From the NCBI RefSeq assembly GCF_003570715.1, contig NZ_QXXQ01000009.1, positions 84,476-148,475 on the forward strand: a DNA stretch of 64,000 nucleotides, given 5' to 3'. Shown piece by piece: positions 36,530-46,862 of the stretch. Within the stretch, counting starts at the first letter, position 1. Every line of letters begins with the position of its first letter. Made by a program: the position numbers and the translations under genes. The stretch is from Gemmobacter lutimaris. Its GTDB lineage: Bacteria; Pseudomonadota; Alphaproteobacteria; Rhodobacterales; Rhodobacteraceae. The notes beneath the pieces were generated by a model. The model was not told where the DNA came from. It saw only the letters and a program-made list of their open reading frames with translations, and searched no databases.

Positions 36530-38617
36530 ATGCAGCAGACAGTCCCATGGATCGGCAAGGCGATGGTGCGGCGCGAGGATGCGCGGCTGCTGAAAGGTGC
36601 GGGTCGTTTCGTTGACGATCATCAGCCCGAGGGGTGCCTTTTCCTCGAATTCCTGCGCAGCCCCTATGCGGCTGGGCGCATCACAGATCTGGATGTCTCG
36701 GACGCCGTTGATGCCGAAGGTGTGGTCACCGTGCTGACTGCCGAAGATTTTGCCGGGCTGGGGCAGGCGGCTGTAAACGCGCTTTTGCCAGGCGCCGAGG
36801 TGCATCCGCTGGAGCCGCTGGCTTCGGGCCGGGTGAAGGCGGTCGGGCAGGCGATTGCCGCCGTGATCGCCGAAACCCGCGAGGCCGCGCGCGATGCAGT
36901 GGAACTGATTGCCTTCGACATCGCCGAAGAACCGCTGGCCACCCGCCGCGTGCTGCGCCATCGCTGGCAATCCGGCGTTCCGCAGACCGGACGCGAGATT
37001 TCGGTGCAGCTTGATCATGCGCTTGTGGCCCCGATGGCGCTGGAGCCGCGCGCGACGCTGGCGCTGCCGGAAGGGGCTGGGCTGAAGGTGCATCTGTCGA
37101 CCCAGACGCCGCAACGCTGTCGCACCGATCTGGCGGCGATCCTTGGCCTTGCGCCCAGCGCGATCCGGGTGCTGACGCAGGATGTGGGCGGCGCGTTTGG
37201 CGGCAAGGCGTCCTTGATGCCCGAGGATGCGGTGGTGGCACTGGCGGCGTTGCGGCTCGGCCGTCCGGTGAAATGGACCGCCGCCCGTTCCGAGGAGTTT
37301 CAGGCGGCGACGCAAGGCCGCGGTGGCGAAACCCGCGCCGTGCTGACGCTGGATCATCAGGGCCTGCCTGTTGCGCTGTCGGCGGAGCTGCGCTTTCCGC
37401 TGGGCCACTGGATGCCCTATTCGGCGCTGGCGCCGATCCGCAACGCGGGGCGCATCCTGCCCGGACCCTACGCCATCGAGGCGGTGGACATCGAGGCGCA
37501 GGCGCATCTGACGCCGGGCGCGGCTGTGAACATCTATCGCGGTGCCGGCCGGCCCGAAGCGGCGATGCTGATGGAGCGGCTGATCGACAAGGCGGCGCAG
37601 GCGCAGGGCCTTGACCCGCTGGAGATGCGGCGCCGCGCGCTTTATCGCGGCGCCTTTCCGCGCGCGACGCCGACGGGTGAGGCGATCTGCTCCGGCGATT
37701 TCGCAGCGCTGCTGGACCGACTGGAACGCGAAACCGATTACGCGGGCCTGCGGGCGCGACAGGCCGAGAGACGCGCGGCGGGTGCGGTCTGCGGCCTTGG
37801 TCTCGCGCTCTATATCGAACCTTGCGGACAGGGTTGGGAAAGTGCCGAGTTGCGGCTGGAGGCCGATGGCAGCTTCACCGCGCTGACCGGATCATCGGCA
37901 CAGGGGCAGGGCCGCGAAACCGCCTTTGCGCAGATCGTGGCCGAGGTCATGGGTGTGACCCCCGACTGCGTGCGCGTGGTGCAGGGCGATACCGAGGCGG
38001 TGCCCGAAGGCATCGGCGCGCTTGCGTCGCGTTCGACCGCCATCGGCGGCACCGCCATGGCCCGCGCGGCGCGACGGTTGCTGGACCAGCTTGGCCCGCG
38101 AAAGGACTGGACCGGCATCGGCCCCGTTTCGGTCAAGGAGCGCTATGAGGCGCCGGGCGAGGCCTGGGCTTCGGGCGCGGTGCTGGCCGAGGTGGCGATC
38201 TGCCCCGATACCGGCCATCTGACGGTCGAGGGTATCACTTGGGTTGATGATGCGGGGCGTGTGCTGAACCCGATGCTGGTGCAAGGTCAACTGATTGGCG
38301 GCCTGGCCCAGGGTCTTGGCGCGGCCACGATGGAACGCATGGCCTATGCCGACGGCCAACTGCTGACCGGCAGTCTGATGGATTACGCCGTGCCCCGCGC
38401 CAGCGACATGCCGCCCGTGCGGCTGATCAGTCAGCCGCTGCCCAGCACCGCCAACGAGATGGGCTTCAAGGGCGTGGGTGAGGCCGGTTGCATCGGCGTG
38501 CCCGCCGCGCTGCTGAACGCGGTGCAGGACGCGCTGTTGCCCTTCGACGCCCCTGATCTTTCACTTCCGCTGACGCCGGAAAAACTCTGGCGCGCCATGA
38601 CAGGACTTGAGCCATGA
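36530..38617 (+). CDS. Xanthine-oxidase-family molybdenum hydroxylase, large (Mo-binding) subunit
   Basis: A 695-residue protein. I start at the ATG at 36530 because GGAGG lies 6 bases upstream. CoxL-like markers are present: IGKAMVRREDARLLKGAGRFVDD at the N-terminus, DVGGAFGGK near residues 218-226, the molybdopterin-site NIYRGAGRPEA, QGQGRETAFAQI, and the C-terminal KGVGEAGCIGVPAA with the catalytic glutamate. The AYRCSFR loop of true CO dehydrogenase is absent, so it is a hydroxylase of unknown, probably aromatic or N-heterocyclic, substrate. It is shorter than usual CoxL (~780). The 2Fe-2S and FAD subunits are not encoded here. Its stop overlaps the next ATG. Confidence 0.88.
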   Translation: MQQTVPWIGKAMVRREDARLLKGAGRFVDDHQPEGCLFLEFLRSPYAAGRITDLDVSDAVDAEGVVTVLTAEDFAGLGQAAVNALLPGAEVHPLEPLASGRVKAVGQAIAAVIAETREAARDAVELIAFDIAEEPLATRRVLRHRWQSGVPQTGREISVQLDHALVAPMALEPRATLALPEGAGLKVHLSTQTPQRCRTDLAAILGLAPSAIRVLTQDVGGAFGGKASLMPEDAVVALAALRLGRPVKWTAARSEEFQAATQGRGGETRAVLTLDHQGLPVALSAELRFPLGHWMPYSALAPIRNAGRILPGPYAIEAVDIEAQAHLTPGAAVNIYRGAGRPEAAMLMERLIDKAAQAQGLDPLEMRRRALYRGAFPRATPTGEAICSGDFAALLDRLERETDYAGLRARQAERRAAGAVCGLGLALYIEPCGQGWESAELRLEADGSFTALTGSSAQGQGRETAFAQIVAEVMGVTPDCVRVVQGDTEAVPEGIGALASRSTAIGGTAMARAARRLLDQLGPRKDWTGIGPVSVKERYEAPGEAWASGAVLAEVAICPDTGHLTVEGITWVDDAGRVLNPMLVQGQLIGGLAQGLGAATMERMAYADGQLLTGSLMDYAVPRASDMPPVRLISQPLPSTANEMGFKGVGEAGCIGVPAALLNAVQDALLPFDAPDLSLPLTPEKLWRAMTGLEP

Positions 38618-39567
38618 AATATACCCGTGAAACCGCCAAATCCCACGCTTTCGCCCATATGCGCGGCATCTGGGCGGCGGCGCTGATGCCGTTCCGCGAG
38701 GATCTGTCGATCGACGAGGATGGCTTTCGCCGCAACATGGATCACTGGATCGAGGATCTGGGGATCGATGGCTTTTTCATCGCTGGCAAGCAGGGCGAGT
38801 TCTTCTCGATGTCGCTGGACGAGCGCAAGCGCAGCTTCGACCTTGCGGTCGAGGCGGCGGGCGGCCGGGCGCAAACCATCATGTCCTGTTCCGATCAGAA
38901 CATGGATGTGGTGATTGATCTGGCGAAACACGCGCAGGCCTGCGGCGCCGATTACATCGTCGTCCACGCGCCGATCCTGCATTTCTTCAAGGAACAGGAT
39001 GAAACCCTGCTGCGCTATTACGAAACCATCGCCAGCAAGGTGGATATCGGCATCGCGCTGTGGAGCCACCCGGACAGCGGCTATCTGATGAGCCCGCAGC
39101 TTTGCAACCGGCTGGCCGACATCGAAACCGTGGTGGCGATCAAATATTCCGTCCCGCGCGAGATGTATGCCGAACTGACCCGGCTGGCCGGCGACCGCAT
39201 TATCGTCTCTACCGCGTCGGAGGAGGAATGGCTGGACAATATCCTTGAACTGGACTGGCGGCTCTATCTCTGTTCCTCGCCGCCCTATCTGATCCAGACG
39301 AAGAATGACCGGCGGATGCGGCAATATACCGACCTCGCCTTTGCCGGAAAGGCGGCCGAGGCGCGGGCGATCCGCGACAGCCTTGACCCCGTGCGCCATG
39401 CGCTGAAATCCACCCGCCCGGCGGAAAAGCCGCACAGCCACCAGAAATACTGGCAAGACCTGCTGGGCCAGACCGGCGGCCGCGTACGCCCGCCCTGCCT
39501 TGAACTGACCGAAGACGAGAAACGCGCGACCCGTGCGGCCTTTGAAGCCTGCGGCCTGAAACTCTGA
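38614..39567 (+). CDS. Non-canonical DapA/NAL-superfamily aldolase-like protein
   Basis: A 317-residue TIM-barrel protein of the dihydrodipicolinate synthase/N-acetylneuraminate lyase superfamily. The Schiff-base lysine is kept (Lys177 in VVAIKYSV). The GTTGE pocket of DapA reads [10 protein letters not shown] here, and the catalytic tyrosine of the PYY motif is replaced (HAPILHFF), so it should not make dihydrodipicolinate. It could be a hydratase-aldolase or lyase acting on a ring-cleavage product of this cluster, but the substrate is unknown. It is coupled to the Mo-hydroxylase gene (ATGA) and lies 16 bases before the dioxygenase gene. Confidence 0.85.
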
Positions 39568-46017: not shown

Positions 46018-46862
46018 TCCGTCACGAGGCAGACTGGGCGCGGGATCGGCTGGACGCCGATTACACCGCAAGGAAGTGTTGTTCGGTCGAAGCGTTCGAG
46101 GCAACGATTGACGCCTATGCCGGGCAAAGTGCGCTGGCGCGCGAAACACTCCCCTGCCGCGCCAATCTGCTGTTTGACGATGTGACCGGCCAGCGGCTTG
46201 ATCTGCTGGCCACCGATCCGTCAAGCCTTCGTCCGCTGATGGTCTTTGTCCATGGCGGTTACTGGCGAGCGTTATCAAAGGAACATTCAACCTTCGCGGC
46301 CCCCATGCTGGCGGCGCATGGGATCGCCACCGCAGCACCGGATTACCGGCTGGCACCCGCTGCCAGCATTGCCGACATTGTGCATGATGTGCGGAAGTCG
46401 GTTGCGTGGCTCTGGCACAATGCGCCCGACCTGGGAATTGACCGGAGCCGGATCGTCGTTGCAGGCAGTTCGGCCGGGGGGCATCTGACAGGTGCGCTGG
46501 CGGCGCCGGACTGGCCCGCGCAATACGGGCTGCCGGTGCATCCGCTGCGCGGGGCGCTGCCAATCAGCGGGCTGTTCGAACTGGCGCCGCTGGCCGCGAT
46601 GACCGTGCAGGACTGGATGGGCTTCACCCCCGAACAGATCGCCGATTGCAGTCCGCTGCGGCATCTGCCGGCCGGTGGCATGAAACTCGGGGTGGCAGTG
46701 GCCGAGCAGGAAACGGCCGGATTCCACCGCCAGAGTGCGGCCTATGCCCAAGCGACCGGCGCACCGCTGCTGCAAGTTGCGGGACGTCACCATTTCGATG
46801 TGATCCTCGATCTTTGCGAGGCCGACAGCGATCTGTCGCGGATGCTTTTGTGGCTGTTCTGA
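46014..46862 (+). CDS. Alpha/beta hydrolase, kynurenine-formamidase-like
   Basis: A 282-residue hydrolase. The oxyanion region VFVHGGYWRAL, nucleophile elbow VVAGSSAGGHL and a late histidine (AGRHHFDVIL) define the fold and match arylformamidases (N-formylkynurenine to kynurenine). That function would suit a route to 3-hydroxyanthranilate, though kynurenine 3-monooxygenase and kynureninase genes are not present here; a related amide or ester substrate is equally possible. The start overlaps the CoxG-like stop (ATGA). It is the last gene of the cluster. Confidence 0.8.
   Translation: MIRHEADWARDRLDADYTARKCCSVEAFEATIDAYAGQSALARETLPCRANLLFDDVTGQRLDLLATDPSSLRPLMVFVHGGYWRALSKEHSTFAAPMLAAHGIATAAPDYRLAPAASIADIVHDVRKSVAWLWHNAPDLGIDRSRIVVAGSSAGGHLTGALAAPDWPAQYGLPVHPLRGALPISGLFELAPLAAMTVQDWMGFTPEQIADCSPLRHLPAGGMKLGVAVAEQETAGFHRQSAAYAQATGAPLLQVAGRHHFDVILDLCEADSDLSRMLLWLF

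Follow-up and report, generated by a model that had tools for sequence, protein, structure and literature searches.

How does Gemmobacter lutimaris process 3-hydroxyanthranilate (3HAA) once the aromatic ring has been opened? The question is raised by an operon at positions 36530–46862 of the DNA analysed here, a 64,000-nucleotide window that corresponds to positions 84476–148475 of contig C76 in a 4.66 Mb genome. The existence of the operon, eleven tightly packed genes on the plus strand, was confirmed. Its products include a 3-hydroxyanthranilate 3,4-dioxygenase (3HAO), the large subunit of a molybdenum (Mo) hydroxylase, a lyase related to DapA (the DapA-like protein), an aspartate dehydrogenase (AspDH) and a five-gene branched-chain-type ABC importer. 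In the closest described system, the nba/onb-type meta-cleavage pathway, 3HAO is followed by a decarboxylase (ACMSD) of 2-amino-3-carboxymuconate 6-semialdehyde (ACMS), 2-aminomuconate semialdehyde dehydrogenase, a deaminase and the oxalocrotonate branch; the decarboxylase is retained in the accounts given by PMC5817917 and the review PMC4539516. On balance, and with slightly better than even confidence, we favour the view that the Gemmobacter operon belongs to a module widespread in alphaproteobacteria, here in its Mo-hydroxylase form, that uses 3HAA without ACMSD. More tentatively, and somewhat short of an even chance, we propose a redox-neutral route in which a DHDPS-family hydratase-aldolase acts on 2-amino-3-carboxymuconate, the nitrogen passes to aspartate via AspDH, and the Mo hydroxylase and an NAD-dependent aldehyde dehydrogenase (ALDH) have repeatedly replaced one another. 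The different lower route suggested by the original prediction remains the best reading; the genes co-occur widely, and the genome yielded no ACMSD.

Gene linkage and the missing decarboxylase

The DapA-like gene was found (E 1e-40 or better) in 30 of 248 genomes of the same family, that of G. lutimaris included. Of the 29 other carriers one, G220, with the gene on a 4.9-kb contig, was left out, and 28 neighbourhoods of about 19 kb (L032–L059), some shortened by contig ends, were compared. 3HAO is linked in 23 of these and AspDH in 22, in agreement with the expectation that the DapA-type protein has constant partners in the family. In L052 (genome G075), where 3HAO is missing from the stretch, the gene lies about 12 kb further on; in L051 (G232) the DapA-like gene sits at a contig end and no 3HAO was seen in the 32 kb behind it. 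Scanning one genome per species returned at least 581 relatives, of which the best 80 were taken, so that this set leans to close relatives. Matches were counted at E 1e-10 over 40% of the query, a loose rule under which the counts for LysR, the periplasmic substrate-binding protein (SBP) and the ATPases include other members of those families. The 80 loci contain 3HAO (78), SBP (69), AspDH (61), ALDH (49), the Mo large subunit (22), kynureninase (5) and CoxG (5). The hydrolase of the operon is matched in 58 loci, in 44 of them at 40% identity or more, and LysR at this identity in 62. L100, one of the two loci without 3HAO, stops directly behind the DapA-like gene. The genes thus co-occur well beyond the window, which contradicts the lack of co-occurrence that would have counted against the original prediction. 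On plasmids, 47 records carry the DapA-like gene and 77 carry 3HAO. Both tallies are equal for the alphaproteobacterial genera with most records, Phaeobacter (23 records), Ensifer (10), Tritonibacter (3), Rhizobium (2) and Ruegeria (2), and one Niveispirillum record is an alphaproteobacterial 3HAO plasmid outside the DapA-like tally.

Among 349 Pseudomonadota genomes 3HAO occurs in 24, ten of which also carry the DapA-like gene (10 of 12 from the window's class and none of the 12 others). Together with 24 more family carriers these ten constitute the 34 module genomes; G055, G075 and G235, present in both the family and the phylum draws, were counted once, and the searches for ACMSD, kynureninase, kynurenine monooxygenase (KMO), nadA and nadC did not include G214 and G220, genomes of 78 and 75% completeness. 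True ACMSD, called by match to solved ACMSD structures, was found in none of the 34 module genomes and in 8 of the 14 genomes that have 3HAO but no DapA-like gene (p = 8e-6), a contrast confounded with ancestry in that 12 of the 14 comparison genomes lie outside the window's class. The true enzymes score 495–596 bits, and the paralogues held by G162 and G235 score 146–211 bits. ACMSD was not found in the G. lutimaris genome at E 1e-40, and an unlinked copy elsewhere in that genome was rejected on this result; no standard ACMSD gene thus came to light for co-expression with the dioxygenase, the other circumstance that would have spoken against the original prediction. The searches provide strong genomic evidence for the module and for its independence of ACMSD. 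KMO, a protein that NCBIfam leaves unnamed and that was named through PDB entry 5fn0, is present in 0 of the 34 module genomes versus 10 of the 14 others, and was not found in the G. lutimaris genome at the limits used; endogenous formation of 3HAA through KMO was rejected on this count. Kynureninase is present in 45 of all 48 genomes, including that of G. lutimaris, where it lies side by side with tryptophan 2,3-dioxygenase on another contig. The original statement that kynureninase, KMO and ACMSD are missing is therefore correct for the window but fails, for kynureninase, at the level of the genome.

Five standard 3HAO clusters served for comparison. RidA and an HMSDH-type ALDH adjoin 3HAO in all five, oxalocrotonate-branch genes are present in three, and an amidohydrolase in four (Variovorax, Vibrio, Mycetohabitans and Rhodococcus), none being seen in the stretch examined of the Cupriavidus pauculus cluster. 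RidA, HMSDH-type ALDH and the oxalocrotonate branch are unannotated in the module plasmid loci examined, where annotation is incomplete and no genome-wide search was made. The exception is a fumarylacetoacetate-hydrolase-family gene at 3702–4610 of the Paroceanicella locus L065, about 7 kb upstream of the module, the sole annotated gene in the module loci examined that could fit the standard lower route. As described in PMC5817917, the nba/onb 2-nitrobenzoate and kynurenine-type 3HAA pathway has the same ring-cleaving dioxygenase as the module and similar feeder genes, and ACMS is probably an intermediate common to both. Unlike that pathway, the module genomes searched lack ACMSD and the loci examined lack a linked RidA or HMSDH-type ALDH; the DapA-like protein, AspDH and an SSADH-type ALDH or the Mo hydroxylase are present instead. 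Conceivably the DapA-like enzyme itself substitutes for ACMSD and decarboxylates ACMS, or its acid, on the lysine to form 2-aminomuconate, after which the usual deaminase, decarboxylase, hydratase and aldolase would act from unlinked genes and AspDH would handle nitrogen only. Some DHDPS-family enzymes (KdgD) also decarboxylate, a substitute would agree with the failure to find ACMSD in any of the 34 genomes holding the DapA-like gene, and the family of the L065 gene includes usual-route hydratases. Nonetheless we consider this substitution unlikely, since the genes that accompany 3HAO in the standard clusters are, L065 excepted, unannotated in the module plasmid loci examined and AspDH is left unexplained.

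The original prediction also allowed that ACMS might be steered to quinolinate and NAD. In such a scheme AspDH would make iminoaspartate for NadA. AspDH and 3HAO both precede quinolinate in known NAD routes, and the GO term NAD biosynthesis appears in some annotations. However, nadC was found in 6 of the 34 module genomes and is missing from 28, nadA was found in 7, one of them split and under cut-off, and is missing from 27, and an aldehyde-oxidising enzyme would drain the quinolinate precursor. The G. lutimaris genome holds nadA and nadC elsewhere, together on contig C15. On the ground of the missing nadC and nadA, both quinolinate formation for NAD and the feeding of NadA by AspDH were rejected for most carriers, and NAD supply is a highly improbable function of the module. 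The shortage of nadC is not special to carriers (6 of 34 versus 11 of 32 control family genomes, p = 0.16; 24 controls are negative for the DapA-like gene and 8 are known only to lack 3HAO); nadA also occurs in 11 controls. Many Rhodobacteraceae probably depend on outside niacin or nicotinamide.

The genes beside the core indicate how 3HAA may be supplied. On a Shinella plasmid (L066) and a plasmid record named Roseateles XES5, kynureninase, ALDH, LysR, the DapA-like gene, 3HAO and AspDH stand in a row. In Phaeobacter the same core is surrounded by 3HAO, ALDH, kynureninase and TTT/TRAP transporters, and Ruegeria THAF33 has ALDH, LysR, AspDH, the DapA-like gene, 3HAO and a TRAP importer. Record L068 (NZ_CP084754.1), called Roseateles and flagged UNVERIFIED_ORG, matches Shinella L066 in the module and the upstream gene order; its species name is perhaps wrong. 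In Rhizobium bangladeshense and Sinorhizobium mexicanum (L063, L069) a DUF4863 protein and a flavin reductase adjoin the core, and the Sinorhizobium DUF4863 protein matches Pfam PnbB, 4-hydroxylaminobenzoate lyase. The pair is similar to the nitroreductase and mutase with which, according to PMC5817917, 2-nitrobenzoate is degraded. The position of both genes next to the core suggests use of 2-nitrobenzoate via the same lower route.

The module might instead act on a close analogue of 3HAA, either another amino-hydroxy-benzoate or a conjugate that the hydrolase opens, again with oxidation preceding cleavage. An imported analogue would agree with the prevalence of SBP (69 of the best 80 genome loci) over kynureninase (5) and PnbB-type genes (0), and with the lack of KMO in the module genomes. 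The kynureninase and PnbB-type neighbours, where present, point to 3HAA itself, and so does the dioxygenase: the window 3HAO exceeds the cut-offs of two curated NCBIfam models (273.5 bits versus 220 for TIGR03037 and 259 versus 145.95 for NF009763), and the conserved residues, which we take to be those of the metal, substrate and rubredoxin sites, are kept in the alignment to PDB entry 1yfu and in at least 109 of 110 aligned rows, the window included. These residues had been reported intact in the original prediction. An analogue as the true substrate is rather improbable.

Exchange of aldehyde dehydrogenase and Mo hydroxylase

None of the best 80 loci carries both the module ALDH and a Mo large subunit, and nine carry neither, four of these being stretches under 19 kb. 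The same exclusion is seen for 114 distinct DapA-like proteins from genome, family and plasmid loci (five identical proteins were dropped before tree construction), of which 69 are accompanied by ALDH, 36 by Mo hydroxylase, none by both and 9 by neither. In this larger set ALDH was counted only at more than 55% identity over more than 300 residues. Two loci were set to ALDH by hand: L071, which ends within the ALDH gene, and L052, whose ALDH lies about 10 kb away (in L198). L067, a record without annotation, was not used. On a quick tree of the DapA-like proteins, in which 40 of 111 inner branches are open, the state changes at least 14 times, or 5 times if the starred branches alone are trusted. 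The label is clustered on the tree (14 changes versus a shuffled mean of 30), as expected of an inherited state. Among known enzymes the module ALDH most resembles SSADH and alpha-ketoglutaric semialdehyde dehydrogenases. That the Mo hydroxylase is interchangeable with such an enzyme points to aldehyde oxidation, most simply of the ring-cleavage product, and the earlier suggestion that the Mo hydroxylase acts before ring opening is probably wrong.

The window Mo large subunit contains the GVGE and YRGAGRPE motifs. No PF01799 (2Fe-2S) match was found on contig C76 and no small-subunit match in the window; the four PF01799 genes of the genome sit on other contigs, and the window enzyme probably borrows its partner subunits. 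CoxG was matched in 5 of the 22 Mo loci versus 0 of the 49 ALDH loci (p = 0.002), in one of the five (L100) upstream and on the opposite strand, and we propose that CoxG is an accessory of the Mo enzyme. At 7439–10107 of L110, CoxG and genes for the 2Fe-2S and FAD subunits come in a row after AspDH; at 16186–18513 of L099, the 2Fe-2S and FAD subunits come after AspDH. L116 and L121 show CoxG and then a 2Fe-2S match, L121 with an additional FAD-region match at the locus end, and L036 has a 2Fe-2S match. With the four G. lutimaris proteins as the only queries, a 2Fe-2S match was obtained in 5 of the 35 Mo loci searched. In L110 and L099 the Mo large subunit stands at one end of the operon and the partner subunits at the other. 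Mo hydroxylases of the CoxLMS/CoxG type have the large subunit and CoxG in common with the window operon. Unlike in those systems, the window large subunit lacks small and medium subunits and adjoins the DapA-like gene.

The DapA-like enzyme and the proposed route

The window DapA-like protein scores far under the DapA equivalog TIGR00674 (83.5 bits versus a cut-off of 206.15), consistent with its original description as non-canonical. The fold and Schiff-base lysine of the class I lyases of the DHDPS/NAL superfamily are present. Lys177, which aligns with the NAL lysine that we take to be the Schiff-base residue, is invariant in alignments of 24 and 29 sequences. The AF2 model (pLDDT 91.5) superposes on DHDPS/NAL structures with TM of about 0.8 and at most 25% identity over the 50 rows listed; the model thus indicates the DHDPS/NAL fold, and a close relative of known function is not among these matches. 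The best 60 PDB matches by profile are NAL, DHDPS and YagE, with neither NahE nor PhdJ among them. The position of the GST/GTT-GE motif reads GKQGE, and that of the Ser/Thr-Thr pair, presumably the binder of the pyruvate carboxylate, is occupied by Lys59-Gln60. His118, Ser151-His152-Pro153-Asp154-Ser155-Gly156-Tyr157 and Arg182 are invariant among the DapA-like proteins; polar residues of this kind would fit a substrate bearing several carboxylates. The window AspDH exceeds the cut-offs of two of the eight NCBIfam models listed, NF009828 and, narrowly, NF009827 (227.4 versus 226). His222 and Asn192 occur in 92 of 92 rows, the window included, so that family score and conserved His both support its identity as an aspartate dehydrogenase.

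The gene set, its conservation, the exchange of ALDH and Mo hydroxylase, the lack of ACMSD and KMO in the module genomes searched and the lack of NadC in most of them are established, and the following route is proposed on them. In step 1 the importer would supply 3HAA, with the hydrolase freeing the imported substrate from a conjugate, and in some loci the hydrolase, kynureninase or nitrobenzoate-type genes would contribute. In step 2 3HAO would open the ring to ACMS, HOOC-C(NH2)=C(COOH)-CH=CH-CHO. For this step the enzyme family itself is the basis; steps 1 and 3–5, and the order of the steps, are inferred. In step 3 the SSADH-type ALDH, or here the Mo hydroxylase with CoxG, would oxidise ACMS to 2-amino-3-carboxymuconate before it could close to quinolinate or lose CO2. 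Oxidation is placed first because cleavage without it would give malondialdehyde. In step 4 the DapA-like lysine-Schiff-base enzyme would hydrate 2-amino-3-carboxymuconate, as its imine tautomer, at C4 and then cleave C3–C4 by a retro-aldol reaction, yielding iminosuccinate (or oxaloacetate and ammonia) and malonate semialdehyde. In step 5 AspDH would reduce iminosuccinate, or aminate oxaloacetate, to L-aspartate, and malonate semialdehyde would be converted to acetyl-CoA through an unlinked MMSDH, one of which exceeds the cut-off in the G. lutimaris genome. The end products are probably aspartate and a three-carbon aldehyde acid. The cleavage step is balanced (C7H7NO6 + H2O = C4H5NO4 + C3H4O3), as are the atoms of the net reaction, 3HAA + O2 + 2 H2O to aspartate and malonate semialdehyde, and NAD(P)H is balanced in the ALDH version. 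If the cofactors match, the reducing power gained by the ALDH could pay for the AspDH step. It also fits that AspDH gains a natural substrate in this route, whereas the rival explanations offer none.

Precedents exist for parts of this chemistry. In protocatechuate 4,5-cleavage (Lig) the semialdehyde is oxidised, the extra carboxyl is kept, and hydration and a retro-aldol reaction lead to oxaloacetate. The proposed route would share this oxidise-hydrate-cleave logic; LigC, LigI, LigJ and LigK belong to other families, and the co-product would be malonate semialdehyde and not pyruvate as in Lig. NahE and PhdJ, trans-o-hydroxybenzylidenepyruvate hydratase-aldolases of the DHDPS family, hydrate and cleave an enone via a lysine Schiff base. 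Compared with these, the proposed substrate of the DapA-like enzyme would be a tricarboxylate.

Several observations, besides the ancestry of the ACMSD comparison genomes, weigh against the module and route as proposed. No 3HAO was found within about 29 kb of the DapA-like gene in G031, G073 and G038, where no genome-wide look was taken, nor in the 20.9 kb of L141. AspDH was not seen in 19 of the 80 loci, including the full-length 20.9-kb stretches L103, L106, L107, L113, L117, L127, L131, L141 and L151. The Mo loci L047 and L048 carry a distant ALDH (28–33% identity), and the window Mo enzyme lacks linked 2Fe-2S and FAD subunits. The column of the catalytic Tyr of DHDPS/NAL, beside a gap in the DapA-like alignment, is variable, so that the chemistry of the DapA-like enzyme may differ. 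L141 is from Paenochrobactrum gallinarii and contains the DapA-like gene, an importer and ALDH, with no match to 3HAO or AspDH; either the missing genes lie elsewhere or the substrate is different. The variable Tyr column would also suit a module that detoxifies 3HAA, which is redox active, or 3-hydroxykynurenine without energy gain, through an unforeseen reaction of the DapA-like enzyme. Most of the 80 loci have an ABC importer, and others have TRAP or TTT systems; such transporters look catabolic, and detoxification is distinctly unlikely.

Operon structure, flanking genes and implications

The eleven genes of the original prediction are all present (Table 1), and their spacings, overlaps of 4–14 bases or short gaps, were re-measured. 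Overlaps join the Mo and DapA-like genes (4 bases), permease 2 and ATPase 1 (4), the two ATPases (7), ATPase 2 and AspDH (14) and CoxG and the hydrolase (4). Gaps separate the DapA-like gene from 3HAO (16), 3HAO from SBP (84), SBP from permease 1 (67) and the two permeases (3). AspDH and CoxG are 11 bases apart with an ATG start at 45586 and overlap by 4 with a TTG start at 45571. Gemmobacter caeni DSM 21823 (L073) has the same DapA-like protein, at 100% identity, and its counterparts of the remaining operon proteins are 74–98% identical.

Table 1 Genes of the G. lutimaris operon, in window coordinates.
Gene product	Position	Strand	Family or model matches
Mo hydroxylase large (molybdopterin-binding) subunit	36530–38617	+	Pfam MoCoBD_1/2, Ald_Xan_dh_C
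DapA/NAL-family class I lyase (DapA-like)	38614–39567	+	PF00701 (DHDPS)
3-hydroxyanthranilate 3,4-dioxygenase (3HAO)	39584–40132	+	TIGR03037, NF009763 over cut-off
Periplasmic SBP, branched-chain-type ABC importer	40217–41374	+	PF13458 (Peripla_BP_6)
ABC permease 1	41442–42356	+	PF02653 (BPD_transp_2)
ABC permease 2	42360–43331	+	PF02653 (BPD_transp_2)
ABC ATPase 1	43328–44083	+	PF00005 (ABC_tran), PF12399
ABC ATPase 2	44077–44778	+	PF00005 (ABC_tran)
Aspartate dehydrogenase (AspDH)	44765–45574	+	PF01958 (Asp_DH_C), NF009828, NF009827, PDB 2dc1
CoxG-like protein	45571–46017	+	PF06240
Alpha/beta hydrolase, HSL-like	46014–46862	+	PF20434 (BD-FAE), PF07859 (Abhydrolase_3)

Scans for promoters and terminators at both operon ends, to which we attach little weight, found nothing. 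On the same strand at 32908–36405 lie genes for a sugar ABC ATPase, an FGGY sugar kinase and a xylose isomerase-like protein, the last called by eye with no Pfam match at 1e-10. These sugar genes stop 79–124 bases ahead of the operon, with no terminator detected between. No LysR gene like those of the relatives adjoins the operon, the sole match in the window being distant (27912–28784, 26%). Behind the operon, 46937–51519 holds a lytic transglycosylase-like gene (by eye, no Pfam match), an FlhA/FHIPEP gene and, by eye only, fliR and flhB.

Among the titles and abstract openings listed for the open-access literature, with subscription papers and preprints outside the scope, no description of this gene set was found. 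3HAA is central among the products formed when tryptophan and kynurenine are degraded. If true, the proposed route would be a second lower route for 3HAA, used by a large group of bacteria from marine, soil and plant-associated settings, in which the unstable aminomuconate semialdehyde is bypassed and the nitrogen is retained as aspartate. Hundreds of proteins that at present bear only the name 'dihydrodipicolinate synthase family protein' or 'aspartate dehydrogenase' would then have a function, and the module would illustrate how a Mo enzyme and an NAD enzyme can replace one another repeatedly.

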